This document shows positions 1 through 58,774 of a DNA stretch of 64,000 nt, in pieces. Location of the stretch: contig QVOM02000034.1 of assembly GCA_003586115.2 (NCBI GenBank), positions 113,714,253-113,778,252 of the forward strand, written 5' to 3'. The notes beneath the pieces are model-generated. The model had not been told where the DNA came from. It worked only from the letters and a program-made list of their open reading frames with translations, and did not search any database. The number at the start of each line of letters is the position of its first letter. The stretch's first letter is position 1. The stretch comes from Salvator merianae (Eukaryota; Chordata; Lepidosauria; Squamata; Teiidae). A program made the position numbers and the translations under genes.

Positions 1-600
1 TACATTTTCAATTAAGAACATAATAGTAGCCTTGCTGGATCAGACCACGGCCTAGTCCAGCATTCTGCTTCACACAGTGGTCCATCAATTGCTTCTGGAC
101 ATTCTCAAGCAGAATAAAAGGCAAAACCTTCACCTGCTTTTGACTCCTCACAAATGGTTTTATAGACATGCTGCCTGTCTTTCCAATCTGGAGGCAGTAC
201 CTAGGCATCCATTTTAGTAACCATTGATACACCTGACCTCCATGAATCTGTCCAGTCCTTTCTTGAAGCTATCTAGGCTGATTGCTGTCACAACCTCTTC
301 CGGTAATAAATTCCATAGATCAATGACCCTCTGGGTGAAAAAAATACTTCCCCTTGTTGGTCCTAACTCTCCTACCAATCAGCTTCAGAGAGTGCCCTCT
401 GGTCCTAGTGTTGTGTGATAGAGAAAATAACTTCTCTCTGTCCACCTTATCCATGTTGTAAATGATTTTATACACTTCAATCAGGTCTCCTCTTAAACAC
501 TGCTTTTTGAGGTTGAAAAGGCCAAGGTGTTAACAGCCTGATTTTGTAAGAAAAGTGTTCCAGCGCCTTTATCATTCTTTGTACTAAGACCAGTCATGCA
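1..600 (-). mobile_element. L2/CR1-group LINE, 3' end of ORF2 plus 3' part (fragment)
   Basis: On the minus strand the sequence reads as the C-terminal end of a non-LTR retrotransposon reverse-transcriptase ORF: stretches such as VYKIIYNMDKVDREKLFSLS, then NTRTRGHSLKLIG, then LLPEEVVTAISLDSFKKGLD, ending near VYQWLLKWMPRYC. These words are typical of the tail that follows the RT domain in vertebrate L2/CR1-group LINEs (family knowledge). The copy has in-frame breaks and is cut by the window edge, so it is a dead fragment. The same tail occurs again at 47395-47815 and 48478-48770, showing a multicopy family. The inner limit near 600 is approximate. The exact clade (L2, L3 or CR1-like) cannot be fixed by eye. 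Confidence 0.75.
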
Positions 601-1386
601 TTTCCTTGACCTTTGGATTGACACCACACTGTTATCAGTAAAACTAAACTCATAGTCCTGAAGATCCAGCACATATGTGGTAACAGGTGCTTAACACCTG
701 ACTAGAACAGTTCCCATAACACAACAATGAATGCTCAACTTATCTCACTGGAATATGAAGATAATGCCACATTCACTCCTTTCTCTTGTCTTGAAGAAAC
801 ACAGGGCAGAAATGTTTCTAAAGAGATAATAAATCAAAAGATACAAATGGATTTAGCTGCCTGATAATATCCTTTCTGAGCAGAGGTGCAACTAACAGGT
901 TAATTTTTGAACTCTTTGCATTGAACAGGACCACCTCCCCATTGGAAGGGGACCCAGTTCATTTTGAACACAACCACAGGCATTTGCATGAACTGGTACA
1001 GCCTCTGTTTTACTTGAGCAAGATCTAGTTTGACCTCATTGGCACTTTCAATAGATATTTATATTGTAATTTAAAGAGGGAACAGGCTCAAACCTGTTTG
1101 ATGTTCCAATTGAACTAGGCCAAGCCTATTCAGCCCACTTTGAGTTTGAACCAAACTCAATGTGGTTTAGTTCAATTCAAACTGAACCACAGTTTTACAA
1201 TCAGATACATTTTTATCTTTAAATTTTGTTATTGTCAAGCCTCTGCTCTATGAATGAATCATTTTATGTTTGTTTTTCTTAAGGATGCACGTACACACAA
1301 ATATAGCTGCATCTAGGAGGCAAAGAATATTGAAATAGGCCAAGAGGTGAAAGCATTGCCAAGAAAACACAAGCTGCCTCACTGAT
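601..1386. other. No gene seen; AT-rich spacer
   Basis: No plausible coding exon. Around 1080-1200 there is a run of words such as TTTGAACCAAACTCAA and TTCAATTCAAACTGAACC in both orientations, resembling the ends of short non-autonomous DNA elements also seen near 41900-42180 and 54830-54980, but I cannot define boundaries. Confidence 0.4.
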
Positions 1387-1480
1387 CATAGAATCATTGA
1401 ATCATAGAATCACAGAATCATAGAGTTGGAAGGGACCTCCAGGGTCATCGAGTCCAACCCTCTGCTCAATGCAGGATTCA

Positions 1481-2110
1481 CTAAAGCATCCCAGACAGAT
1501 ATCTGTCCAGCCTTTCTTTGAAGATCTCCAGTGAAGGAGAGCCCACCACCTCCTGTGGCAACCTGTTCCAGTGATTGATTGCCCTTATGGTCAGAAAGTT
1601 TTTCCTAATATCTAGCCTGTATCTACTCCCTTGAATCTTCATCCCATTGTTTCTAGTCCTTCCTTCTTGCGCAATTGAGAATAGGGCCAATCCTTCTGCA
1701 CTGTGACAGCCCTTCAGATACTTGAAAACAGCTATCATGTCTCCTCTCAGTCTTCTCTTCTGCAGGCTAAACATTCCTAGGTCCTTTAACCATTCCTTGT
1801 AGGACATGGTTTGCAGACCACTCACCATTTTGGTCGCCCTTCTCTGAACTTGTTCCAGTTTGTCAATGTTTTTTTTAAACTGGGGTGCCCAGAACTGGAC
1901 ACAATACTCCAGATGAGGTCTGACCAAGAAAGGGAAAAGTGGGACAATTACTTCTCGTGATCTAGACACTATACTCCTCTTGATACAGCCCAGGATGGTA
2001 TTTGCCTTTTTTGCAGCTGCATCACACTGTTGACTCATGTTTAATCTGTGATCTACTAGTACACCCAGATCCTTTTCACATGTGCTGCTGCACAGCGAGA
2101 TTCCCCCCAT
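1481..2110 (-). pseudogene. CR1 ORF2 C-terminal domain
   Basis: Reads as the conserved CR1 tail after the RT palm: CEKDLGVLVDHRLNMSQQC, ANTILGCIKRSI, VRPHLEYCVQFWAPQFKK, RRATKMVSGLQTMSYKEWL, RRLRGDMIAVFKYLKG, NHWNRLPQEVVGSPSLEIFK, ending RLDRYLSGML and a stop at 1481. The stop lies about 95 bp from the repeat end, the normal short CR1 3'UTR. It is separated from the RT block by a frameshift. About 85-90 percent similar by eye to the copies at 30005-30727 and 34379-34735. Confidence 0.9.
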
Positions 2111-3327
2111 TCTGTATTGGATATTGTCACTTTTCTTCCCAGATGTAAAACTTTGTATTTCTCCCTGTTAAATGTCATTCTGTTAGTTTCAGCCCATTGT
2201 TCAGGCTTGTCCAAATCATTTTGAATCCTCTCCTTCTCCTCCCTAGTGTTAGCAACCCCTCCTAGCTTTGTGTCATCTGCAAATTTGATCAGCGTCCCCT
2301 CGACACCTTCATCCAGATCGTTTATAAAAATGTTGAACAGCAGTGGGCCCAAGACAGAGCCTTGCGGTACCCCACTCGAGACAGTCTTCCAATCGGATGT
2401 GAAGCCATTTATGACCACTCTTTGAGTACGATCACTAAGCCAGTTATGAATCCACCTAACAGTTGTTCTGTCAATCCCATATTTGATCATTTTTTCAATA
2501 AGTATAGTATGAGACACCTTGTCAAATGCTTTGCTAAAGTCAAGATATACTATGTCCACAGCCTTTCCTTGATCGATCCATCCAGTAATTTTGTCATAAA
2601 AGGAAATGAGATTAGTCTGGCATGACTTGTTTGTTACAAATCCATGTTGGCTTTGGTTAATTACTGCATTCCCATCCAAGTGCTCACATATACGCTGTTT
2701 AATGATTTGTTCAAATATCTTGCCTGGTATTGAAGTCAGGCTCACAGGCCTGTAGTTGCCTGGGTCAGCCTTCTTTCCTTTTTTAAAGTTAGGTACAACA
2801 TTTGCCCTTCTCCAGTCTTCTGGGACTTCTCCTGTTTTCCATGAGTTCTCAAATATCACAGAGAGTGGTTCAGCAATTATATCAGCTAATTCCTTCAGCA
2901 CCCTAGGATGTAATTCATCCGGGCCTGGAGACTTGAATACATTTAAGTTTGCTAAGTGTTCCCTCACCTTCTCTTTGTACATACAGAGCCTTGATTCTCT
3001 TATTCCCTCCACAGCACAGTGAAGGCCAACTGATGTTTCATTTCCTTTCTGAGAGAAAACAGATGCAAAATAGGTGTTCAGAAGTTCTGCCTTCTGAATG
3101 TCATTTTTGACCAAATCACCCTTCTCATTTTGTAAAGGTCCTATAGCTTCTTTGACTTTTCTTTTGCTTCTGACATACCCCCAAAACCCTTTTTTATTGT
3201 TTTTGGCCTCTCTTGCAATCCTCAATTCATTTTTAGCTTTAGCTTTTCTGACACTTACCCTGCAGTTCCTGCAGATTGCATTATATTCTTCTTTTGATAT
3301 GGCCCCCTCTTTGAATTTTTTAAACAT
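2056..3327 (-). pseudogene. CR1 ORF2 reverse transcriptase domain (open 423 codons)
   Basis: A long open segment of CR1 reverse transcriptase. From the N-side: a basic linker (KKFKEGAISKEEYNAICRNC), then EVPEDWRRANVVPNFKKG, NYRPVSLTSIPGKIFEQ, QHGFVTNKSCQTNL, IVYLDFSKAFDKVSH, SSGVPQGSVLGPLLFNIFIN and the catalytic LIKFADDTKLGG with both aspartates intact. These are RT motifs 0-5 in order. After VLHLGRK the frame is lost (about 2110-2150) and the rest of ORF2 continues in another frame. The RT core therefore looks chemically intact, but the ORF is interrupted on both sides. It copied the element's RNA at the nicked target in the live ancestor. Confidence 0.9.
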
Positions 3328-4010
3328 TTCTTTTTTTTCTTTTTAGCAAGTGATTAAGTTCAGGGTTCATCCACCCTGGTCTCTTTAGATGCTTGCCATT
3401 CTTTCTTCTTTTAGGAATTGTTAAAGATTGTGCCTCTAGAATCTCCTTTCTCAAAATTCCCCATCCTTCCTGGACATTTCTGTCCTTTAAGACATCCAGC
3501 CAATGGATCCTTCCTACCCTCCTTCTCAATCCATCAAAATCTGCTCCTCTGAAATCTAACCTTGAAGTCTGAGTCCTCTCAGATCTTCCTCCTTTTGTTA
3601 TCCAAAACTCAATGGTAGCATGGTCTTTGCCACCCAGGATCCCGGTCACCCTTACTTCCTCAACCATTTCCTCCCTGTTGGTAAGGATTAGGTCCAAGAT
3701 AGCAGACCCCCTTGTTTTTTCCTCCATCCTTTGGAAAATGAAGTTATCTGTCAGAGAGGATAAGAATTTATTGGACCCGTGACTTTTGCCAGAGAGAGAT
3801 TCCCAACAAATGTCTGGATAGTTAAAATCTCCCTTAATCACTAGGTCATGTTTCCCCGAGAGCTTGGCCATCTGATGTATAAATAGTTCATCCATATCTT
3901 CTGTTTGTCCAGGGGGTCTATAATAAGGTCCTACAATAGTATCCTTTGTGTTGCTCTCTCCTTGTATTTTCACCCAAATGGTTTCTACAGGGCTTCCATT
4001 ATCTGAAAGA
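3320..4010 (-). pseudogene. CR1 ORF2 endonuclease domain (partial, broken)
   Basis: Translated on the minus strand this gives a partial exonuclease-endonuclease-phosphatase domain: [15 protein letters not shown], the metal-binding stretch [11 protein letters not shown], the [18 protein letters not shown] segment and the terminal catalytic region GGKDHATIEFWI. In CR1 endonucleases the last motif is normally SDH; here the Ser is Lys while the Asp-His pair remains, so activity would be doubtful (family knowledge plus observation). The N-terminal part with the first catalytic Asn/Glu motifs is lost to truncation. The frame is lost at a T-rich homopolymer near 3328-3345, where the protein shifts from LLKRKK to MFKKFKEG. 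The domain nicked target DNA in the ancestral element. Confidence 0.85.
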
Positions 4011-4180
4011 TTAATCTATGTGGTGGTATATATTTTCCTTACATACAATGCAGCACCTCCTCTCCTTTTATTAAGCCCCCTGAATGACTGCTGTGAGCTG
4101 AAAACACCACTCACAGCAGTGAGGTTTCCAGCTTGTGTCACTTCCTGGAGGACCAAAAATTGACCATTTTTTACTAACTG

Positions 4181-6590
4181 GAAAGTGGCAACCTTACTGA
4201 CTTACTGACTTTCATTGGATATTCTACCCCTGGGACATCAGGGGATGTGCTAGGCAACCATGTAGTTAGTACATATTTAAATGGTACCTAGTATTCTTGC
4301 ACTCTATATTCATATTTGCATCAATACGTTAAGTTTTTTCTGTGCAATTTTCTGTGGAATTAAGATTTTAAAGTAGGTGGCTTTGTCCACACTTCTTTCT
4401 ATGTCAAAACTTCACAAATTATGTAATCCAACTGGAATCAGAATATGTGAATTGGTGAGGGTCTTGAAGGCCATTTATTTGAACCCAATATCAGTTCAGG
4501 AATAAGACCCCCAAGAAATGGAATTATATTGTCTTATTAGTAGTTCAATGAAAAAAAAAAAAAAAGTTCACCTAGCTCCAGATGAGATCTTCATGCTATG
4601 GCTTTAAAAATGGTAATTGGCATAGTTCCTCTATAAAAGAGCAATTAGGAGACAAACACATGTGCGCGCACACACACAGAGTCACACACACAAAACCCTA
4701 CAGAAATCAGATCAAATCAAAACATCAGCTTTATTAAAAATAGCGATGCAAGCTCGAGAACAGTGTAAAATACAGAAATGACAGTTTTGACAACAATCAA
4801 CTGACCAGGTGAACTGTCAAGCCTATCGAACTGAGTACAGTTTCTATGTAGTCAAATATAGAGGTCTCCCTTCTGGCAGTGTACTGAGCATGCACAAGGG
4901 GTCAAATAAGGTAAACATCTTCCTAGAAGTTACTCTTTATGAATGGTAACGTCAATGTAGGTCAATTTTGACTGGTTGTAACAGAAAGGAATAGACAGAA
5001 GGTGAAAAAAGGGGGAAACTACCTAAAATATTTCCTAGCCTAATACAAGAAGACCCTAACTCAGCTAGGTGCAGCCAGTTCTCCACAACAGATGCAAAGG
5101 GAGTTTGGTTTGTGGATTTGCTACACACGAGGAAGCTCTGACATTTGGTAAAGATTCCAGCAGAGTTGCAGAGGTCCAGAAGAGAACAACCCTGTGTCAG
5201 CAAAGTGGCAAAAGCAATTATTTGGCTATCTGCCATAGCCAAGGCACAGATCTATGTCCAGTCAAGTGGAACTGCTTTGAGCTGAAGCAGCAAAATGGCA
5301 GTCAAAGTGGAACAAAGTGAAGTGCCTTCCTGCAGCAGCGCAGTAGCAGCAGTTCCTAAGTGACAGCAGCATATCATAGAGATGATAAATGACAACATGG
5401 CATGCACTAGCATGTCTAGTGTGTATTTTTATGCACATATGGACCTGGGAGCTGTCCCTGATCTTAGATTTGCCCAGGGATGAGAATTCTAGGCTGTGTT
5501 AATAAACATCCATGGCCAAGCTCTGGCAGGAAAAAAACATGAAGGGGAGGAGGCAAGTGATGTAATGTTTATGTCACTATGGACCATATTTGATACTTCC
5601 TTCCTCTTGATTGAATGTGTCCAGGTGGAGGAACACACTTCTTAATAGTGATGATGGGCTTAAATGGGTTACCTTTATTTAAACAAAAAACAATCTTGAG
5701 TTGGAACCAGTTTTCAGTCAGATTTCAATACTATTGCCTTGTATTCTTAATGAGAGACTTCCCAGATGTAAATCTAGGACTGCTGTAAACAAAGGTTTGT
5801 CTGAAATGCCAAACTACCTTAATGTTATCCGTTCAAAATTCTGCCAGAGATAATATCAGCTACTATCAAACCATCTAATAGGTTGCCTCCTGAGTCAGCT
5901 CCTGCTCTTATTCAAATGGCTTTCCAAGCCCTTTTCTCTGAGCACAACACAGAATATTTTACAATTTCTTCCTTGCCCTTTTAAAATCAGTCCTGTATTT
6001 TCCAAGATGGATTCTGGTGAACAAAGATGAGACTTGGTCTAATACAGAGACCTAAGCTCTATGGTTAAGTTCCCTGTACTTGCAACCTATGTGCCAATTA
6101 TATTTTTGATACACATGTCCAGTTCTATAGTCCAGAGATGTCTGTACCTTGGTAGAGCCCTGCCTTTTGGTGACACAGCACACTGAGACCTCAGCATTAT
6201 GGGTAATGTCTACTACAATTGGCAGAAGCACTAAGCATCATATTCATCTTCTGAAGCCCTTGGAACTATAGAGATGGGCAAACCGTTGACTTGAATGGCT
6301 TATAAAACAGTTTTTCTCTTGTTTACTGCCCTGCCAGGCCTGAAATTGCATTGGACAGCTAAATGACATGATTTTGAAGCCCAATGTGGTATAGTCCTGT
6401 CTCCTTCCAGCTCTGAAAATGCCCAGGAAGGGCATCTGGGATAGAAAGGTAAGCTGAAGTAAATCTCTAGGATCAATGTTGGTACATGCTCCAATTAGCA
6501 ATTAGCATTCCTCATGTAAGAGGGAACGGCTGACTTGAATGGTTTACAAATCATTTAACTTAGTGGCTTTCACAAACCTAATTACAGTAG
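4181..6590. other. No gene seen; AT-rich spacer with minor simple repeats
   Basis: No coding exon supported. Simple sequence only: an A15-16 run at about 4551-4566 and CA-rich repeats at about 4655-4692. Short open frames here (for example 4952-5242, 5069-5320) lack composition or motifs suggesting proteins. Confidence 0.4.
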
Positions 6591-6598
6591 GAATAGGC

Positions 6599-6865
6599 TA
6601 GGGACATGCATGAAAGGAAAATTTGATTCATTTTTTGAATTTCCTTCATTTCCATTGAAAATGCCATTTTCATGGTTTAAACATAGAAAAAAAATGCAAA
6701 AAAGTGAATATTTGAAGAATCCCGTTTTCACAAAAGAATAGGCCTTTTCATTTTCAATCAAAAACCCATAAGTGCAAAAAAGTCATTTTCGTCTTGATGC
6801 AAAAATTTGCAAAAATGAATCTTTGAATGAATCTTTTAATATGAATAGAAATTTGCACATCTCTA
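6599..6865. mobile_element. hAT-type non-autonomous element (267 bp), old copy
   Basis: Left end TAGGGACATGCATGAAA, right end (reverse complement) TAGAGATGTGCAAATTT: imperfect inverted termini matching the hAT pattern and similar to the elements at 16894, 38379, 50176 and 57849. Flanks are GAATAGGC and GAATGGAC, 6 of 8 matching, as expected for a decayed 8-bp target duplication. The interior is AT-rich, with AAAATG/CATTTT words in both orientations and no coding capacity. Confidence 0.7.
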
Positions 6866-8774
6866 GAATGGACTTTAATATGGAGTTGGTAGCAGCTGAG
6901 ACATAACCTTGGCATTCCCAATATAGTGTCACTTTAAGGGCTGAAAACCCATAATGTCTCTCTCACAGAAACCCAGCAACAATGCCAGTTTTTTGTTTGT
7001 TTTGTAACATTGGTGTTAACCTTTGACATCTGATGAGCACCTTCTGGAATCAGCTCAATTAAGGAAACAGAAGTCACCCAAGTGTGCAAAAACAACAAAG
7101 GGAAATGGGTGGGTACTTGGCTAGCTTCTGGCAATCCCTTTCGAGCTGATCCTGGAAGGTGCTCTCCAGGATTCAAGGTAAGCCCAGGATTGCAGCAAGA
7201 GGCAATCATTGGATCTTGTTTAGATCCCACATTATCTCTTGCTATCTGGAGACAGCTATATTTGCATACATGACATTTTGATTCACAAAACTCTTAAAAC
7301 ATTTTTTTAAACAGTAGAAATAAGCTACAGTTAAAACAATAAAAGCAGTATTTATATATTGCCATTTCTAGACAATTGTTACAAGATAGTTTTTTTTAAA
7401 TAATGATGATGATGATGATGATGATGATGAAGAAGAAGAAATCCCATGTAATGGTTTTTAATGTGATAAATAAAATAACATAGAAGAGCCCAACCCTTTT
7501 TAAAAAACACCTATGTATGTGTTTGTCAGCACTACTCTCTGGATGAAGTTCTCACCTTTTGAAGATTCCACTCCTTTCTTTCCTTTCTTGCCCTCTCAAT
7601 TATCCTTATCTTGTGTTTTTGTTTTTCTTTGCCCCCTATTTAGCCAGTTGACCCTTATGGCATCATCCTAAAAGGTTCCACCCTACCTGCAGGGAGGATG
7701 CCAACAAAAGCTGTACACAACCCCTTAGAAACTCATGGTGAAGCTGAAGATGCAGCTATCACTGCTTTGCTTGGAACCACCCACACTTCTGCATCCATTT
7801 TTCATGATTACACTGCACAAGAAGAATCTAGGAGTTGCAGTGTTGCCAGTCCAATCGAGTGCCTTATCTATTGCACTTCTTTTATTTAAGACTGAATTTA
7901 TCATGCCATCTTTGCAGCATAAGATTTTGACTTCTCTTCTCTAAAGAAAAGTCACTTTATCTACCCAGGTGGCATTTTTTTCCATATGTGTGTGTCATTC
8001 TCTCATTCCATCTATGTTCCCTTTCAGGATCAGCATGCTGTCAGGAGCATTTTCATTCAAAATGTTAAAAAAACAACGACAGTTCTAATGCACAACAAGC
8101 AAAGAATTAATTTACAAATACAAGCATTTCCTCTTTTCCGCTTGGTCCTAAGTAATGACATCAATAACTGTTCATATTTGCTAATACTATTATTTTAACC
8201 TATATTTAAATTAGCAGAGGACTTTGTCTGCCACACATGTAGAACCTGTTGCTAAGCAACTAAATCCCATTATCTAGGGAATAATATTACATCTTATTGA
8301 ACACTGGCACAAATGGAGAATGGTTTCAGAGGACTGGCTTTTCAGTCACAGTTCTGTCACCAGACTACCTCTTTACTACAGATTATTGCAAGGAATTGTA
8401 AGAAAGAAAAAGAAAAGAAAATAGCATTCCCGAATGTCAACCTGTTGTCTTGAAAACAAACACTTGAGTGTAATCAAGCCATAATCAGCACTTTAACGGA
8501 TTAAACATTATCCAAAATAAAGTTCTGAAGGATATGTTGTTTCTATTATAGCATTCTAGCCCTTTAAGAAGTGCATTTGGAGATAATACTAATGCATTGG
8601 GAATTAAAAAAAAAAAAATCATAGCAGTGAACTCATGACCTTCAATATTTATAACATGCAAATAAGTATCTCATGCATAATATTTCACATGAAGTTGTTA
8701 AGCTAGGGATGGAGTCTGGCCCATCTACCCATTTGTGGTAAAGAGGTTAGTTGAATTTTGATATGTTGCCAAAG
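6866..8774. other. No gene seen; spacer with small trinucleotide repeat
   Basis: Nothing coding that I can support. A (GAT)n/(GAA)n trinucleotide run lies at about 7404-7440. The open frame at 7735-7944 and others here are short and unremarkable. Confidence 0.4.
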
Positions 8775-8830
8775 GGAAGGAAGGAAGGAAGGAAGGAAGG
8801 AAGGAAGGAAGGAAGGAAGGAAGGAAGGAA
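8775..8830. repeat. (GGAA)n microsatellite
   Basis: About 13 tandem GGAA/GAAG units, nearly perfect. It sits 20 bp left of the inverted-repeat element at 8850. Confidence 0.95.
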
Positions 8831-8849
8831 AACAAAAGACATAAAGTAT

Positions 8850-9234
8850 GGGCCTGTTACACTTTACCCTTAGTGAATGACTGGAGGCTCACCGATCAGT
8901 GTATCTGCACTGCTCCACTGCCACAGCATCTGGCAGCAGCTAGATCACTCTCAGTCAGCAGCACTCGCACCTTCATCTAGGGGTGAATGCTGTGAGTCAG
9001 TGGCACAGTGTAGTTGTAGCTGCATAGTCACACATCCTGTCCCCAACTGTCATGCCAATGCCTAGACATTGCCATGGCCATTGTCATAGCAGTTGGGTCA
9101 GCCATCTGCACTGCGGGTACTGGAGGTACAGTACAGGGTTGTTCCAGTCCTCACAATGCAGATGGCAGCTGCACCACAGGGTCTTGTACAGCCTAGAATG
9201 GTATACCTAGAATGGGTCAAGTGTGAACAAGCCT
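8850..9234. mobile_element. Inverted-repeat DNA element, GGGCCTGTT-terminus family (385 bp)
   Basis: Starts GGGCCTGTTACACTTTACC; the right end in reverse complement is AGGCTTGTTCACACTTGACC. These termini recur in other copies (12871, 16227, 25778, 42194, 62629). The interior shares words with them, such as TCACTCTCAGTCAGCAGCA, GTCATAGC and GAATGCTG. Flanking triplets are TAT and TTT, so a 3-bp duplication is only weakly supported here. No transposase. Confidence 0.65.
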
Positions 9235-38378: not shown

Positions 38379-38946
38379 TAGGGGTGTGCACGAAGTTTTG
38401 TGCCACTCGAATTTTCATCGAATTTCGTGTTTTCGTTCCCTTCTCATCGAATGCGAAGGGCAACAAAGATCACAAAATTCGAATTACGAAGGTCCCTCAA
38501 TTTTCGATGCATTTCGGGACCTTCGCAATTTGCTGCTGTCTCACCCCCCTAGGCTGCCAGTGCGCGGGCTGACAGTCTAGGGGAAATGAAAGACAGCGAG
38601 CGGGAGACGAGGGAAATCAACAAAAGGAGGGTTTCCCTTCCTTTCATTGATTTCCCTCCTCTCCCACTCGCTGTCTCTCATTCCCCCTAGTCTATCGGTC
38701 ACACGCGCACACTGACAGACTGGGGGGGGGGGAATGAGAGAGAGGCGAGTGTCATCGGAAACAGAGAAATCAAGGCGAAGGATCTTTCCTTCGCCTTGAT
38801 TTCTCTGCTTCCGGTCGTGGCGAAAATCTTCGCCGTGTAGACAAAGGGCTTCATTTTTGCACATATTTTTTCGTGCGAAAATGAAGCCCTGTAGCTTTGC
38901 AGGAATGCAAAGCGAAAGGGGAAAAGTGCCTTCGTGCACACCCCTA
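38379..38946. mobile_element. hAT-type element, hairpin-rich, perfect 8-bp duplication (568 bp)
   Basis: Both ends are TAGGGGTGTGCACGAAG (right end inverted). Flanked by GTAAGTGC on each side (38371-38378 and 38947-38954), 8 of 8 identical, so the borders are exact. Subterminal sequence is rich in TTCG/CGAA words. The interior holds two stacked hairpins: arms GACAGCGAGCGGGAGACGAG with CTCGCTGTCTCTCATTCCCC (38580-38695), and GAAATCAAGGCGAAGGATC with CCTTCGCCTTGATTTC (38768-38808). No transposase coding. The flanking AAGTGCAGAAAGCCC shows it landed in the terminus of an older MITE. Confidence 0.95.
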
Positions 38947-50167: not shown

Positions 50168-51089
50168 GTGGGTTCTAGGGGTGTGCACGAAGCTTCGTAG
50201 CAACGAAGTTTCGTTTGAATTTCACCTCTTCGCGGTTTTCGTGTCAAATGTGAAGGGCAATTTATATTGTGAAAGCGAATGGCGAAAGTCCCCCCAATTT
50301 TTGCTTACTTTCAGGACCTTCGCCATTTGCTGCGAATGGCCACTTTCATCTTTTTTTCGCCGCGAAAGCTTCGACGCATCGAAGCCTAGTGGCTTCGCAG
50401 CCTCCAGACTCTGCCTCTAGAGGTTGGAAATTGTAATGCATCACAGTAAGAAAGACTTAAGACGACGGGTTTTTTTTTTAACTCTTCGCCTGCCTCGCAT
50501 CGGATCGCATCGCATGAGGATGAGAAACTCAGATGGCTAGGACATTAATAAAACTTCTTTGATGGTGGTATATAGTTCTGCTTTTTGAAATGGAGGGCAA
50601 GACGACGAGGCATCATTTCACTGCTTCTCTCAGTTATTTCATCCTGCGGCTGCCTCCAGTCTTCTAAATTACTCACTTACCTGAAGGCAATTGCTTCGAG
50701 TGTCGCTGACTGAGCCCGCCCACCTTGTACAATGAGTAGGACTAGGCGAGGCGCTTGTGGAAAAAAGTTAACCGAGGTTACAACAAAGTGGCGAGGGAAC
50801 GAATGAACCGTTGGCAATCAGAATGTTGCTGCTGCTGGCTGGCTGCTAAACGAAGAAAAAGGAAAGGAGCGGGCTTCAGCGCGCAAGTTCGTGAGAGACT
50901 CTAAACCGGGATCATATGAGGTAACTTACTACTAGCTTTGAAAGCCAGTAAAAGTCTTTTTTTTTTTTTGAAAGCTTTGAAAGTCCCTGCCCAGGCAGGG
51001 CATACCCACTGATAAGAGGGTATGTTGGGCAAGGAGGTCAGAAGACCCCAGCTGCCATGGAGAGGGCGAATCACTAGTGTGCTCCTAGG

Positions 51090-51170
51090 CAGCCAATCCC
51101 AGAGCAGGTTTCACAGGCCAATAAAACTGCAGTGGGTGGAATCTATTTAATGGTCACCTCGTAGGAGAAA
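51090..51170 (+). promoter_or_regulatory. Putative promoter and leader of the Myb/SANT gene
   Basis: Two CCAAT boxes (51093-51097 within AGCCAATCCC; 51118-51122 within GGCCAATAAA) and a TATA-like CTATTTAA (51143-51150) lie 20-78 bp upstream of the ATG. The ATG context GAAAATGG has A at -3 and G at +4, a strong vertebrate start context. Motif spacing is plausible, but function is inference; with the TATA box this close to the ATG the leader would be very short. Confidence 0.45.
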
Positions 51171-51519
51171 ATGGCAGCAACCCGTTATTTGTATTGGCAG
51201 GTGGAGGAGATCCAGGCCCTGCTGGAGGCGCTGCTAGCAGCAAATGGGCTTCGAGAGCGCCTGATGACCTGCACCTGCAGGCAAAATCGAAGCCTCTTCC
51301 TAAAGGCATCGAGAAGCCTGCAGGTGCGGGGATTCAGGCGCTCCGTGGCGCAATGTAGGTTAAAATTCAAAGGGCTCAGGGCCGGTTTCTACCAAGCCCT
51401 GGAGGCCCATGATGGCTCTCCCCCACGCTGGAAGAGGCTCCCGTTTTACACGCTCCTACACCAGCTGTGGGATGTTGCCGGGAGATCCCACTGGAGACAT
51501 CGCCACCAGGCCAGTTCAG
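51171..51519 (+). CDS. Exon 1: Myb/SANT-like (trihelix) DNA-binding domain
   Basis: Codes for 116 residues plus one base. From residue about 8 to 100 it has the Myb/SANT-like pattern of the MSANTD/ZSCAN29-type family: YWQVEEIQALLEAL (helix 1, Trp and acidic pair), then a basic RNRSLFLKASRSLQVRGF-type block (here RQNRSLF...SLQVRGF, helix 2), QCRLKFKGLRAGFYQAL (helix 3, basic) and RLPFYTLLHQLWDVAGR (PFY, terminal helix). Members bind DNA; some are host transcription regulators and related domains partner Harbinger transposases (family knowledge). The start is the first ATG, in a strong context. The exon ends at TTCAG|GTATGT, a good donor, in phase 1. Without splicing the frame would run on only to 51596. 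Confidence 0.85.
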
Positions 51520-51896
51520 GTATGTTGCTCCTTCTTGTCATTGAAACCCCCCCACTGCCCCCTAAAATAAATATGGTGCGCCACAGATGCGCCTGACCAC
51601 TTGTGCATCTGCCACTCCCTTGGCAGTTGGGGCAATGAGATAATAAGTGTTAGCTGCTTGCACTCTTGATTTCAGTGGGAAGGAACTGAACTGATTTCTT
51701 TGACTTATGCGGGGGGCGGTGGGGAGGTATAGAACCACAATGCTGCCTGTAACACATGATGGTCTCATTAAAAATGAGCTCCTATTTCTGCAGCAGACAT
51801 GGCTGGATGGCATCAAGTATGGTGTACCGCTTTCTTACAAATTTGGCCCAAACTGAAAACCTCTGCAAACAGAGTGACACATTCATTGCTTTCCAG

Positions 51897-51989
51897 CCAG
51901 AGCACGTGAAATAGAGGAGCCAGGGCTGGGAGAGGTTCCTGAGGAGCAGGAGGAGGAAGAGGAGCTGGTTGCTGAAGAGCGAGCAGAAG
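51897..51989 (+). CDS. Exon 2: acidic linker
   Basis: 93 bp, phase 1 at both ends. Preceded by TTGCTTTCCAG and followed by GCAGAAG|GTACGT, both good splice sites. Joined to exon 1 it is fully open and reads AREIEEPGLGEVPEEQEEE followed by ELVAEERAE, a highly acidic Glu-rich stretch typical of linkers after Myb/SANT-like domains. Length is a multiple of three, so skipping it would keep frame. Assignment rests on splice signals plus frame continuity. Confidence 0.7.
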
Positions 51990-52138
51990 GTACGTTGGCG
52001 TTCCCCGTTGGAAGTGATGCTGTGGGGGACACTACTGAGAATGAGGGAATAACAGCTTGAAAGCAAAGGTTAATGGGAATTGTCAGGTCATCGTCAGGTG
52101 TTCATTGTGGTTCTTTCCTCTAATCTCCTCCTGAGCAG

Positions 52139-52255
52139 AACCACCCACAGTGCCAGCAGCCGGGCCGGCACAGGCACCTGCCCCAGCAGTGACACCAGCT
52201 GCCATCTGTCTGCAGGAGGTTCCTGGGATGGAGGGCAGCAGCAGGGGTGTCCAAT
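52139..52255 (+). CDS. Exon 3: Pro/Ala-rich linker
   Basis: 117 bp, phase 1 to phase 1. The acceptor follows a pyrimidine tract (TTCTTTCCTC... CTGAGCAG), the donor is CCAAT|GTAAGT, near consensus. The joined frame is open: PPTVPAAGPAQAPAPAVTPA then AICLQEVPGMEGSSRGVQ. Low-complexity, likely disordered. Confidence 0.7.
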
Positions 52256-52489
52256 GTAAGTTTGCTTGCAGGGGGGGTACATGAAGCAGGATGCAGCTAG
52301 CTTCCTTGGCAGGTGGGCAGGTGGGCGGACTGCAAGCCTGTCTGAAACGGGGAAGTGGGCCTGATTCATTGACCCAATCCATCAGTTCCCTGCCCTACCC
52401 AGCTGCCACTGCTGATCAGGGCAGAAGGTGCATTGATTGACTCTCCTTGCTGCTGAAATGTAATTCCTTTCCTCTCTCTTTCTTCCCAG

Positions 52490-52546
52490 TTGTAGCTCTT
52501 AGACCTATGCCTGGTGCGGCATCCCCCCCGCCCACACAGGAAAGCA
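52490..52546 (+). CDS. Exon 4: short Pro-rich exon
   Basis: 57 bp, phase 1 to phase 1. The acceptor has a strong pyrimidine tract (CCTCTCTCTTTCTTCCCAG), the donor is AAGCA|GTGAGT. The joined reading is FVALRPMPGAASPPPTQES. Fourth junction in a row preserving an open frame. Confidence 0.65.
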
Positions 52547-52711
52547 GTGAGTATACAGTATTGCACCGGCCCGTATTCTCCAACCGTTTCTGCCCACCCT
52601 GCAGCGCTGCCATTAGGGGACTGGTGTTAGTCTGGCAGCAGATCCCTCTTGCACCAATCCCCATTGCATCCTGTTGGCTACTGAGCCACCTGTTCTGCTC
52701 TCACTTTACAG

Positions 52712-52954
52712 GAGGCCCAGCAGGAGGCCCAGCCTCAGAGGGCTCACCCCCCTCCACAAGTGCCCTGCAGATCTGCATGGAGGAGGAGGAGCAACAACCC
52801 CGCCCTCGCAGTTGCAACGTGGCCACCCAGACTGACCAGCTGGAGCATGGGACCCAGACCACCTGCCTCGAGGAGGTCCTGGAGTCCCATGCTCGGATGC
52901 AGAGGGCAATGGCCACGCACCATGCGTATTCCTGGGTTTTTTGCTGTTCACACG
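52712..52954 (+). CDS. Exon 5: conserved-looking acidic/helical exon (3' end uncertain)
   Basis: Acceptor TGCTCTCACTTTACAG. Open reading: RGPAGGPASEGSPPSTSALQ, then ICMEEEEQQPRPRSCNVATQ, TDQLEHGTQTTCLEEVLESH and ARMQRAMATHHAY. The LEEVLESHARMQRAMA part looks like an amphipathic helix. To reach exon 6 in its best frame a phase-1 donor is needed; candidates are GT at 52955 or 52958, both weak. If neither is used the frame runs to a TAA at 53044-53046, giving an alternative C-terminus (FCCSHGGVAVQG...). This is the least certain junction. Confidence 0.6.
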
Positions 52955-53070
52955 GTGGTGTTGCTGTGCAGGGCGAAGTGCGCCCTTGCCTCCTTTGCGT
53001 GACTGGGGATGTGTGGAGCATCTGGGCAGATGTGTATCAGTCCTAATTTCGTCCTCTTATGTTTCCACAG

Positions 53071-53492
53071 ACCAGCAGTGCAACGTGAGGGTTTTTGCTG
53101 TGGAAAGGGGCATGCAGGTTCTGCAGGGGCAGGTGGAGGCAATGGATGCCCGCCTCCACATGATAAGCAATGCAGTGCTGGAGCTGAGGGATGATCTCCA
53201 GGGGCAGGCTCCCCCAGAGAGGCCCGCAGGGTGTGTGAGGGCCTATGGCCAGAGGCAGTATACCGCGTTGGTAGGGAAGACAGCGGGATTGGCTTCAGCA
53301 GGGCAAACACTAGCTGCAGCAGGTTGCTGGAATGGGCAGCATGTGTGGCGAGCCATTATCTTCCAGGACCCTCGAGGGGTTGGAGGAGCCGTTCATCCTA
53401 TAACACTCCTCTGCCAGCAGCTACTGCTGGAATTCAATTTGACTGTTGTGCCCTTTCCCTCAAATTCCCTGGGAAACCTGCACGATACCTGA
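53071..53492 (+). CDS. Exon 6: helical C-terminus and stop
   Basis: Acceptor CTTATGTTTCCACAG. The chosen frame reads DQQCNVRVFAVERGMQVLQG then QVEAMDARLHMISNAVLELR, a heptad-like amphipathic helix suited to dimerisation, then a less structured tail to TGA at 53490-53492. The other frames lack this pattern. With exons 1-5 and the 52954 donor the protein would be about 426 residues. The last roughly 80 residues could be non-native if another intron or an earlier stop applies. An AATAAA follows at 53612-53617. Confidence 0.6.
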
Positions 53493-53611
53493 TCAGCAAT
53501 TATTTCCCCCTACAGGTTCTGAAGTCCTGCCTGGCCTGCCTGCATTGCTGTTGCACCTGTAAATAGTTCTGTGTATTTTATAAGTTGTTTTTTTTTTTAC
53601 CTGAGAAGAGG

Positions 53612-53617
53612 AATAAA
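53612..53617 (+). terminator. Polyadenylation signal of the Myb/SANT gene
   Basis: AATAAA 120 bp after the exon 6 stop, preceded by CTGTAAATAGTTCTGTG and TTTTATAAG. Fits a short 3'UTR. No experimental support. Confidence 0.55.
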
Positions 53618-53819
53618 AGAAAGATAAGGCAGAAGGGAAGGGAGAAATGAGAGAGAGACAGAACCAGAGAGATCCACTAGACCACCCCACCGCGGGAAGC
53701 ACAGGGTCGGAAGAGAGAGAGAATGAGAGATCGAATCCCGGCGTCTCCTCTCCTTCAGTCGCAGGTCAATCAGCTTAGAGTCAGCTCCGATCGTCACGGA
53801 AATAAAAAAGGCTTAATGG

Positions 53820-54576
53820 CTCATCGGCAGCCGCTTTTATAAGGTGCTATGGACCCACCCAATTCAATCACAAAACCCTTTTGTTTCCATGGCAACAGCA
53901 GGTAATTGCGAAAATAAACAGAGCGCCAACAACCCAGGTGGAAAGATTTGAAATCGAAGCACCAATCAGGAGAAAGCAAGCCAATAGGTATAATTTCCTC
54001 GCCCCAAGCGATTGGCAGCCAGCGACGAGTGCCATAGTTAAAGGGACAAAACTTAGCGCGCATGCGCGCACAGACATGAGCATCAAAAAGCCATCGAAAA
54101 TGACGAAAAATCAAAGCGGAAAAAACACCTTCTGCTTTCGCTTGCTTTCGCCTCTCTGGCATATTAGCGAAATTATAGCATTTATTTCCTTCCACGCAAC
54201 CTCGCAATCGACAGTGAGGAAATGTAGCTTCGTTGCTTTGAATCCTCCTACAAACCAGCTGCCGGTTAAAAGTAAGCTCGTGCAATTTTTACCTTATAAC
54301 AAGCCAACTCCTTAAACTATGAACGTGGACAGTCAAATATAGAAGGGACAAGGCAGGGGGACATGCGGCATTTCCCTATAGAAAAAAGTGTATGTTTTTC
54401 AATACTTATTTCCTTTATTTTGCAAGGAACGTGCCCCCCCGGTTTTTTGCGAAGATTTTCGCAGCGAAAACGAAGGTCGAAATTTTCACGAGTGACGTTT
54501 TCGCTTGAAAATGAAGCTACGGTGCTTCGAGGCTTTGCGAAACGAACACCGAAAAATCCTTTCGTGCACACCCCTA
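53820..54576. promoter_or_regulatory. CpG-rich right arm of the 50176 element with NRF1-like palindrome
   Basis: A perfect palindrome GCGCGCATGCGCGC at 54056-54069 contains the NRF1-type core GCGCATGCGC (known motif). Around it are inverted CCAAT boxes (GATTGGCAG, 54010-54018) and a CCATGGCAAC word (53887-53896, RFX-like half-site by eye). The arrangement resembles a housekeeping-type promoter, possibly on the minus strand, where a 154-codon frame (53821-54285) exists but has no recognisable domain. Promoter function is inference. Confidence 0.4.
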
Positions 54577-54584
54577 GTGGGTTT

Positions 54585-57848: not shown

Positions 57849-58774
<926 letters not shown>

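Follow-up and report, generated by a model that had tools for sequence, protein, structure and literature searches.

A decayed member of a two-gene hAT transposon family in Salvator merianae carries a Myb/SANT gene of probable Harbinger ancestry

We analyzed a window of 64,000 nucleotides from the teiid Salvator merianae (GenBank assembly GCA_003586115.2, contig QVOM02000034.1, positions 113,714,253 to 113,778,252 of the forward strand), focusing on a 4.4-kb unit at window positions 50176–54576. An initial annotation, made from the letters alone, had described this unit as a hAT-type transposable element with an intron-containing Myb/SANT-domain gene, and this description holds: the unit is an internally deleted, decayed, non-autonomous member of a hAT family that is repeated in the genome. 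The family to which it belongs is almost certainly a two-gene hAT element of about 8.5 kb. The explanation that we favor, with moderate confidence, is that the Myb gene was acquired from a Harbinger element and kept by the hAT family as an accessory DNA-binding factor, the window holding a decayed copy of this family.

The unit starts with TAGGGGTGTGCACGAA at 50176–50191 (left terminal inverted repeat, plus strand), and the exact complement of this sequence lies at 54561–54576 (right terminal inverted repeat, minus strand). The 16-bp inverted termini reported at the outset are therefore exact, and a further pairing base just outside each terminus extends them to 17 bp (50175–50191 and 54561–54577). 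The flanking octamers GTGGGTTC (50168–50175) and GTGGGTTT (54577–54584) agree at 7 of 8 positions, as in the 8-bp duplication with one mismatch described before, and represent the target-site duplication of the window copy. Inside the termini, the left subterminal region (50192–51170, plus strand) is the presumed promoter and 5' leader of the Myb gene, and the right subterminal region (53597–54560, plus strand, from alignment with relatives) corresponds to the 5' side of a lost transposase gene. In the relative L017, words such as GCGAAAA recur close to both ends. The window contains seven matches to the 15-mer AGGGGTGTGCACGAA when up to three mismatches are allowed, compared with 1.31 expected, and two of the seven are the unit's own ends.

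To place the unit in its family, we searched the 2.05-Gb genome with its whole length; this gave 5,667 first-look candidates, of which 39 were scored and yielded 44 match rows. Leaving the window's own match uncounted, 33 of these rows begin no later than query position 3 and reach at least position 3335, contrary to the scenario proposed as a refutation, namely a single-copy gene between two independent miniature inverted-repeat transposable elements (MITEs). All but two of the 33 rows (31) end at query position 3418–3421, because the relatives, where the stretch is long enough, carry an additional block at this point, and only after it the unit's final 980 bp. This block, about 4.1 kb long by comparison with locus L010 and about 4.3 kb by comparison with L017, is missing from the window, where the alignment places the deletion junction at about 53594–53597; a minus-strand hAT transposase gene has been lost with it. 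Members of one subfamily (subfamily B, see below) lack about 110 bp of the last 980 bp.

We read 20 related loci at length for their anatomy. Both ends, matched at up to three mismatches, are present in 13 of them, 8,128–8,605 bp apart, and 12 of these 13 are flanked by perfect 8-bp duplications. In the remaining seven loci one end was not found: these are cases of truncation, nested insertion, or gaps, or the stretch did not reach far enough. The exception among the 13 is L018, whose flanks agree at 0 of 8 positions; in the oriented copy the element spans 501 to 9075, and inspection by eye shows its flanking octamers CATTGTAT and ATACACTG to be inverted complements at 7 of 8 positions, as if one side had been inverted. 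The duplications are of the 8-bp hAT length, not of the 3 bp produced by PIF/Harbinger elements. Duplications of the Ac type of hAT follow the pattern nTnnnnAn, and among the 12 perfect duplications, inspected by eye, a T stands at position 2 in 11 and an A at position 7 in 8.

In full-length members, the predicted Myb gene (six coding exons and a tail exon) runs rightward and the transposase gene leftward towards it, giving a convergent arrangement. In L017, the transposase is an open reading frame (ORF) of 853 amino acids on the strand opposite to the Myb gene, with a zf-BED domain (4.8e-11), a Dimer_Tnp_hAT domain (2.2e-13), and a C terminus that matches the Hermes transposase in PDB (1e-11). 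Among the RNase-H-like D, D, E catalytic residues, the C-terminal SERVFS stretch aligns with Hermes, and candidates for the two D motifs were chosen by eye against known motifs. Pfam scanning of the element covered this ORF and the Myb exon, and for the transposase ORF of L017 it returned hAT models above cut-off and no PF13359 match. The transposase is open across 853–855 amino acids in 6 of the 20 loci (L015, L016, L017, L019, L021, and L023), 6 (L016, L017, L018, L019, L020, and L022) have kept an intact Myb frame with intact predicted splice sites, and both genes are open in 3 (L016, L017, and L019). The hAT transposase of the full-length copies makes the family a two-gene hAT element rather than a Pack-hAT. 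The initial remark that no hAT transposase is visible is accurate for the window copy and does not extend to the full-length relatives; these copies, holding both genes, back the two-component element that had been offered as one of two options.

A public protein search with residues 150–853 of the transposase returned 48 matches, of which the best by E value was a ZBED4-like prediction from Hemicordylus capensis (50% identical, with 99% of the query covered); ZBED4-like predictions from caecilians were 35–36% identical. These ZBED4-like hAT transposases of reptiles and caecilians share with the family the BED finger, the hAT dimerization region, and similarity over nearly the full length of the queried part, but they differ in being known here as predicted proteins alone, without genomic context. 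In P0001, a ZBED4-like prediction of H. capensis, there is also a SCAN domain (PF02023), and P0013, from Eublepharis, has one too; the combination is either a gene fusion or an annotation artifact.

The Myb gene of the window lies on the plus strand, and we modeled it in seven exons with splice sites predicted from the alignment with the 20 related loci. Exon 1 (51171–51519) encodes the DNA-binding part and is held within a match to PF13837 (Myb_DNA-bind_4) at 51168–51593, which scores 40.7 bits against a cut-off of 27 and bears out the Myb/SANT-like exon of the initial annotation. It is followed by an acidic exon 2 (51897–51989), exon 3 (52139–52255), exon 4 (52490–52546), exon 5 with a TQT...GTQTT motif (52712–52921), exon 6 with a tail that looks coiled-coil-like by eye (53071–53230), and, at 53516–53593, a last exon with the stop codon, together with a 3' untranslated part shortened by the deletion. 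From the exon lengths, introns 1 to 5 are predicted to be in phase 1 and intron 6 in phase 2. The frame is continuous and contains no premature stop, in agreement with the claim that the exons join in frame. What does not agree with it is the donor of intron 5, which is GT in 17 of the 20 relatives and AT in the window copy, so that the window gene is probably not spliced as modeled; the change from CG to CA at this donor would fit recurrent decay of CpG. In subfamily B, exon 4 contains a CA/C-run whose length varies, and this puts several copies (L011, L012, L013, L015, L021, and L023) out of frame.

A genome search with Myb exon 1 gave 953 candidates, and the best 150, which were scored, show 88–100% identity and are free of stops in 127 cases, a majority owed in part to the youth of the copies; the exon 1 of the window's own subfamily (subfamily A) is absent from these 150. 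Single-sequence AlphaFold prediction for the Myb exon gave four helices at a mean predicted local distance difference test score (pLDDT) of 43.7, too weak for a fold search, and a PDB search with the same exon returned nothing better than GT-1 and a DUF1911 protein, with E values of 0.23–0.44. In the public protein collection that holds the ZBED4-like predictions, searches with the spliced Myb protein found no relative among 7,996 scored candidates at an E value threshold of 1e-3 and none among 343 candidates at a threshold of 0.1.

A close relative came from the same genome. Locus L032, which had been fetched for a different Myb family, also holds a Myb gene that matches that of the hAT family with 55% identity over 110 amino acids in exon 1 (4e-40), 49% over 37 amino acids in the TQT exon, and 36% over 314 amino acids between the spliced proteins (2e-47, with the low-complexity filter off), the middle of the alignment being loose, acidic, and proline-rich. 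Exon 1 and the TQT exon have the same end point and the same phase (phase 1) in both genes, and at the donor of the TQT exon a C is followed by GTAAGTATTC versus GTGAGTATTC in this comparison. The splice points of L032 were placed by hand, guided by the hAT Myb gene, and the resulting model has five exons, with no counterpart of exon 4. At the level of sequence, this shows that the two Myb genes are homologous, with the same intron positions where these were checked. Directly upstream of the L032 gene, on the same strand, lie two transposase pieces matching PF13359 (DDE_Tnp_4), the transposase domain of Harbinger (8.6e-12 and 1.4e-14), and because they are adjacent, the L032 Myb gene and this transposase presumably share one element.

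According to passages of PMC4482050, PIF/Harbinger elements usually carry a second ORF coding for a Myb/SANT protein, and passages of PMC8437027 state that Harbinger transposition needs both proteins. We consider it highly probable that the Myb gene of the hAT family is of Harbinger ancestry. The direction of capture, from Harbinger to hAT, would follow from this usual two-gene state of PIF/Harbinger and from the need for the Myb/SANT protein in transposition, and not from a tree. Since introns are common to L032 and the hAT Myb gene, the gene would have arrived as genomic DNA and not as cDNA. In the course of events that we propose, a hAT lineage would have acquired the Myb gene, introns included, from a PIF/Harbinger element, and the Myb protein would bind the subterminal repeats and/or the transposase and aid transposition as it does in Harbinger. 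The protein may thereby recognize the element ends. The window copy, for its part, has lost its transposase by internal deletion and has a broken splice donor. By analogy with Harbinger, we think it fairly likely that the Myb protein helps transposition directly rather than serving the element in some other selfish way.

To ask what has been maintained in the Myb gene, we compared subfamily A (the window, L009, L010, and L024–L027, with L029 added for net divergence) with subfamily B (L011–L023 and L028), counting a difference as fixed at sites where at least 75% of the copies agree within each subfamily. The Myb exons together contain 30 synonymous and 33 non-synonymous fixed differences, with a ratio of non-synonymous to synonymous differences per site (pN/pS) of 0.34 (Fisher, 1.1e-5), and exon 1 contains 18 and 12, with a pN/pS of 0.20 (Fisher, 2.9e-6). 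When the frame is shifted, the ratios rise to 2.06 and 0.86 for all Myb exons and to 1.83 and 0.89 for exon 1. Exclusion of CpG sites leaves values of 0.35 and, for exon 1, 0.19, and the bootstrap 95% intervals are 0.20–0.58 and 0.07–0.38. Such a dependence on the frame is the mark left by purifying selection on the Myb protein.

The subfamilies also differ unevenly along the element. Net A–B divergence, calculated from 7 copies of A and 11 of B, with smaller numbers at the right end, is 7.8% in the left 2.4 kb, comprising the left end and exons 1 to 3, 1.1% in the middle with the transposase, and 4.1% at the right end; the initial 150 bp alone contain 21 fixed A–B differences in 134 sites. 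A core swapped between two lineages would produce such a profile. The profile is compatible with a single specificity unit made up of the Myb domain and the ends, without proving it. A more daring and rather doubtful extension is that transposon superfamilies trade modules for end recognition: a hAT element with a Harbinger Myb gene would then be an obligate two-component system, in which the Myb exon and the ends form a coevolving specificity cassette around a nearly unchanged transposase core, and new subfamilies would gain their own end specificity.

Several observations weigh against an accessory Myb factor of Harbinger origin under selection. Besides the window copy, three relatives (L010, L025, and L027) have AT in place of the intron 5 donor. 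The Harbinger neighborhood was sampled at one locus, L032, where a stop separates the two transposase pieces, the N-terminal piece reaches only an E value of 0.0097 for HTH_Tnp_4, below the cut-off, and clear element ends were not found. The selection signal is confined to exon 1 and exons 2 and 3, most of it in exon 1; exon 4 has a ratio of 1.19 on 4 changes, exon 5 has 2 changes, and exon 6 has none. Moreover, at 0.267 the synonymous divergence of exon 1 greatly exceeds that of the introns (0–0.080), and its pN (0.052) equals the divergence of intron 1 (0.053); the dependence on the frame argues for selection, but the excess of silent changes may point to a mosaic, older history of the exon or the left block. 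The transposase has 25 fixed differences, too few to prove selection: its ratio is 0.59 (p = 0.14), and shifting the frame gives 0.63 and 0.98. Finally, the A–B contrast is a single comparison, and gene conversion of the core explains the joint variation of ends and Myb exons without any recognition of the ends.

Among other explanations, the one that fares best keeps the Myb gene as a selfish regulator, which would control the element's promoters or counter host silencing, for example by activating transcription of the transposase, and would have no role in cutting. The frame-dependent constraint is compatible with any selfish function, and the left end, which would contain the Myb promoter, covaries with the Myb exons. 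The right end, on the 5' side of the transposase, also differs by 4.1%, as recognition of the ends would predict, a value that does not separate the two readings. The precedent of Harbinger, in the passages of PMC8437027 that describe it, favors a role in transposition itself. On balance, we regard pure regulation as unlikely, yet deserving of serious attention.

Much less probable is the other option of the initial annotation, a Pack-hAT in which a captured host-type gene travels as functionless cargo between hAT ends that are moved in trans. Pack-TIR and other transduplicating elements consist of ends around an intron-bearing gene, and the window copy taken alone looks like one of them, with hAT ends, an intron-bearing gene, and no transposase. 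The family differs from such elements in that its Myb gene is also present in the transposase-bearing full-length members that were read, is constrained across subfamilies in a frame-dependent way, and is related to a gene that adjoins a Harbinger transposase, the nearest Myb relative found. No host parent gene for the Myb gene was found among the best 150 of 953 exon 1 candidates, which did not amount to an exhaustive search, and a closer host parent is thus conceivable.

We assign an equally small probability to the idea that a Harbinger element jumped into a hAT element and decayed, leaving the Myb gene as a passenger with no present role. Nested insertion may well be the route by which the gene arrived, and the homology to the Harbinger-adjacent Myb gene does extend to the introns; in addition, the exon 1 pN is not below the divergence of intron 1. 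A mere passenger, however, would not give pN/pS values of 0.20–0.34 in frame against 0.86–2.06 in shifted frames, and the predominance of stop-free exon 1 copies among those scored is explained only in part by their youth. That two unrelated MITE ends merely happen to flank an ordinary gene, an idea for which related ends elsewhere in the window (38379–38946 and 57849) could be invoked, is refuted by the recurrence of left end plus gene at many loci and by the perfect duplications of 12 of the 13 full-length relatives.

We favor, then, an accessory Myb gene of Harbinger origin in a hAT family. In the usual description, a hAT element has a single gene, and its transposase locates the element ends by itself; we found no report of a Myb/SANT gene in a hAT element in the open-access literature, Repbase and most subscription papers lying outside this scope. 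Like PIF/Harbinger elements, the family has two genes, one of them Myb/SANT-like and homologous to the Myb gene of L032; unlike them, it has a hAT transposase instead of DDE_Tnp_4, hAT-type ends, and 8-bp duplications. By its ends, duplications, and transposase it is a hAT element, one that perhaps operates in a Harbinger-like manner through its accessory Myb protein. Passages of PMC8437027 describe solo-ORF variants of Harbinger-Snek in sea kraits, which resemble the window copy in keeping one of two genes but belong to Harbinger, whereas the window copy, which keeps the Myb gene, is a hAT. The functions of additional ORFs in PHIS elements were called unknown in 2015 in a passage of PMC4482050.

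A helper gene thus seems to have been swapped between two unrelated kinds of transposon and to be still in use. If this is true, accessory genes pass between transposon superfamilies without close kinship, and the function of the Myb protein becomes naturally testable, as the same kind of protein, if working, is paired with a quite different transposase; the copies with both genes open allow a direct test. It also suggests that in such genomes some of the genes predicted as Myb/SANT-like belong to transposons.

A search of the same genome with PF13837 gave 886 candidates, of which 150 were scored, all of them above cut-off, with recurring open-frame lengths of 177, 187, 200, and 232 amino acids. 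This suggests several further multicopy Myb families in the genome, possibly transposon-borne. L032 itself contains two different Myb genes about 3.5 kb apart on opposite strands (L032:2494–3027 and L032:6498–9769), one from the family with the 177-amino-acid exon and the other beside the Harbinger transposase. At L033, from the family with the 200-amino-acid exon, no recognizable transposase was found in 9 kb (ORFs of at least 130 amino acids, tblastn with the hAT transposase, and Pfam scans of two ORFs).

Further relatives of the hAT family were seen in passing. L031 (G000:C1803:2967500–2972500) holds at 1093–4999 a divergent copy that is 88% identical to L017 and about 84% identical to A copies, and its Myb exon 1 is open over 237 amino acids, continuing into the intron; it is possibly a third lineage. 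In the left flank of L003/L024 (G000:C148:6973332–6974555), a smaller relative, with a left end 78% and a right end 71% identical to those of the element, is separated by about 20 bp from a full-length copy. Within the window, a MITE of 568 bp (38379–38946) shares its 16-bp ends with the large element and has a perfect 8-bp duplication (GTAAGTGC), its initial 150–160 bp being 73–76% identical to the left end of the large element. A further end of the same family lies at 57849–57901, with 81% identity over 53 bp to the right end, and its partner was not located.

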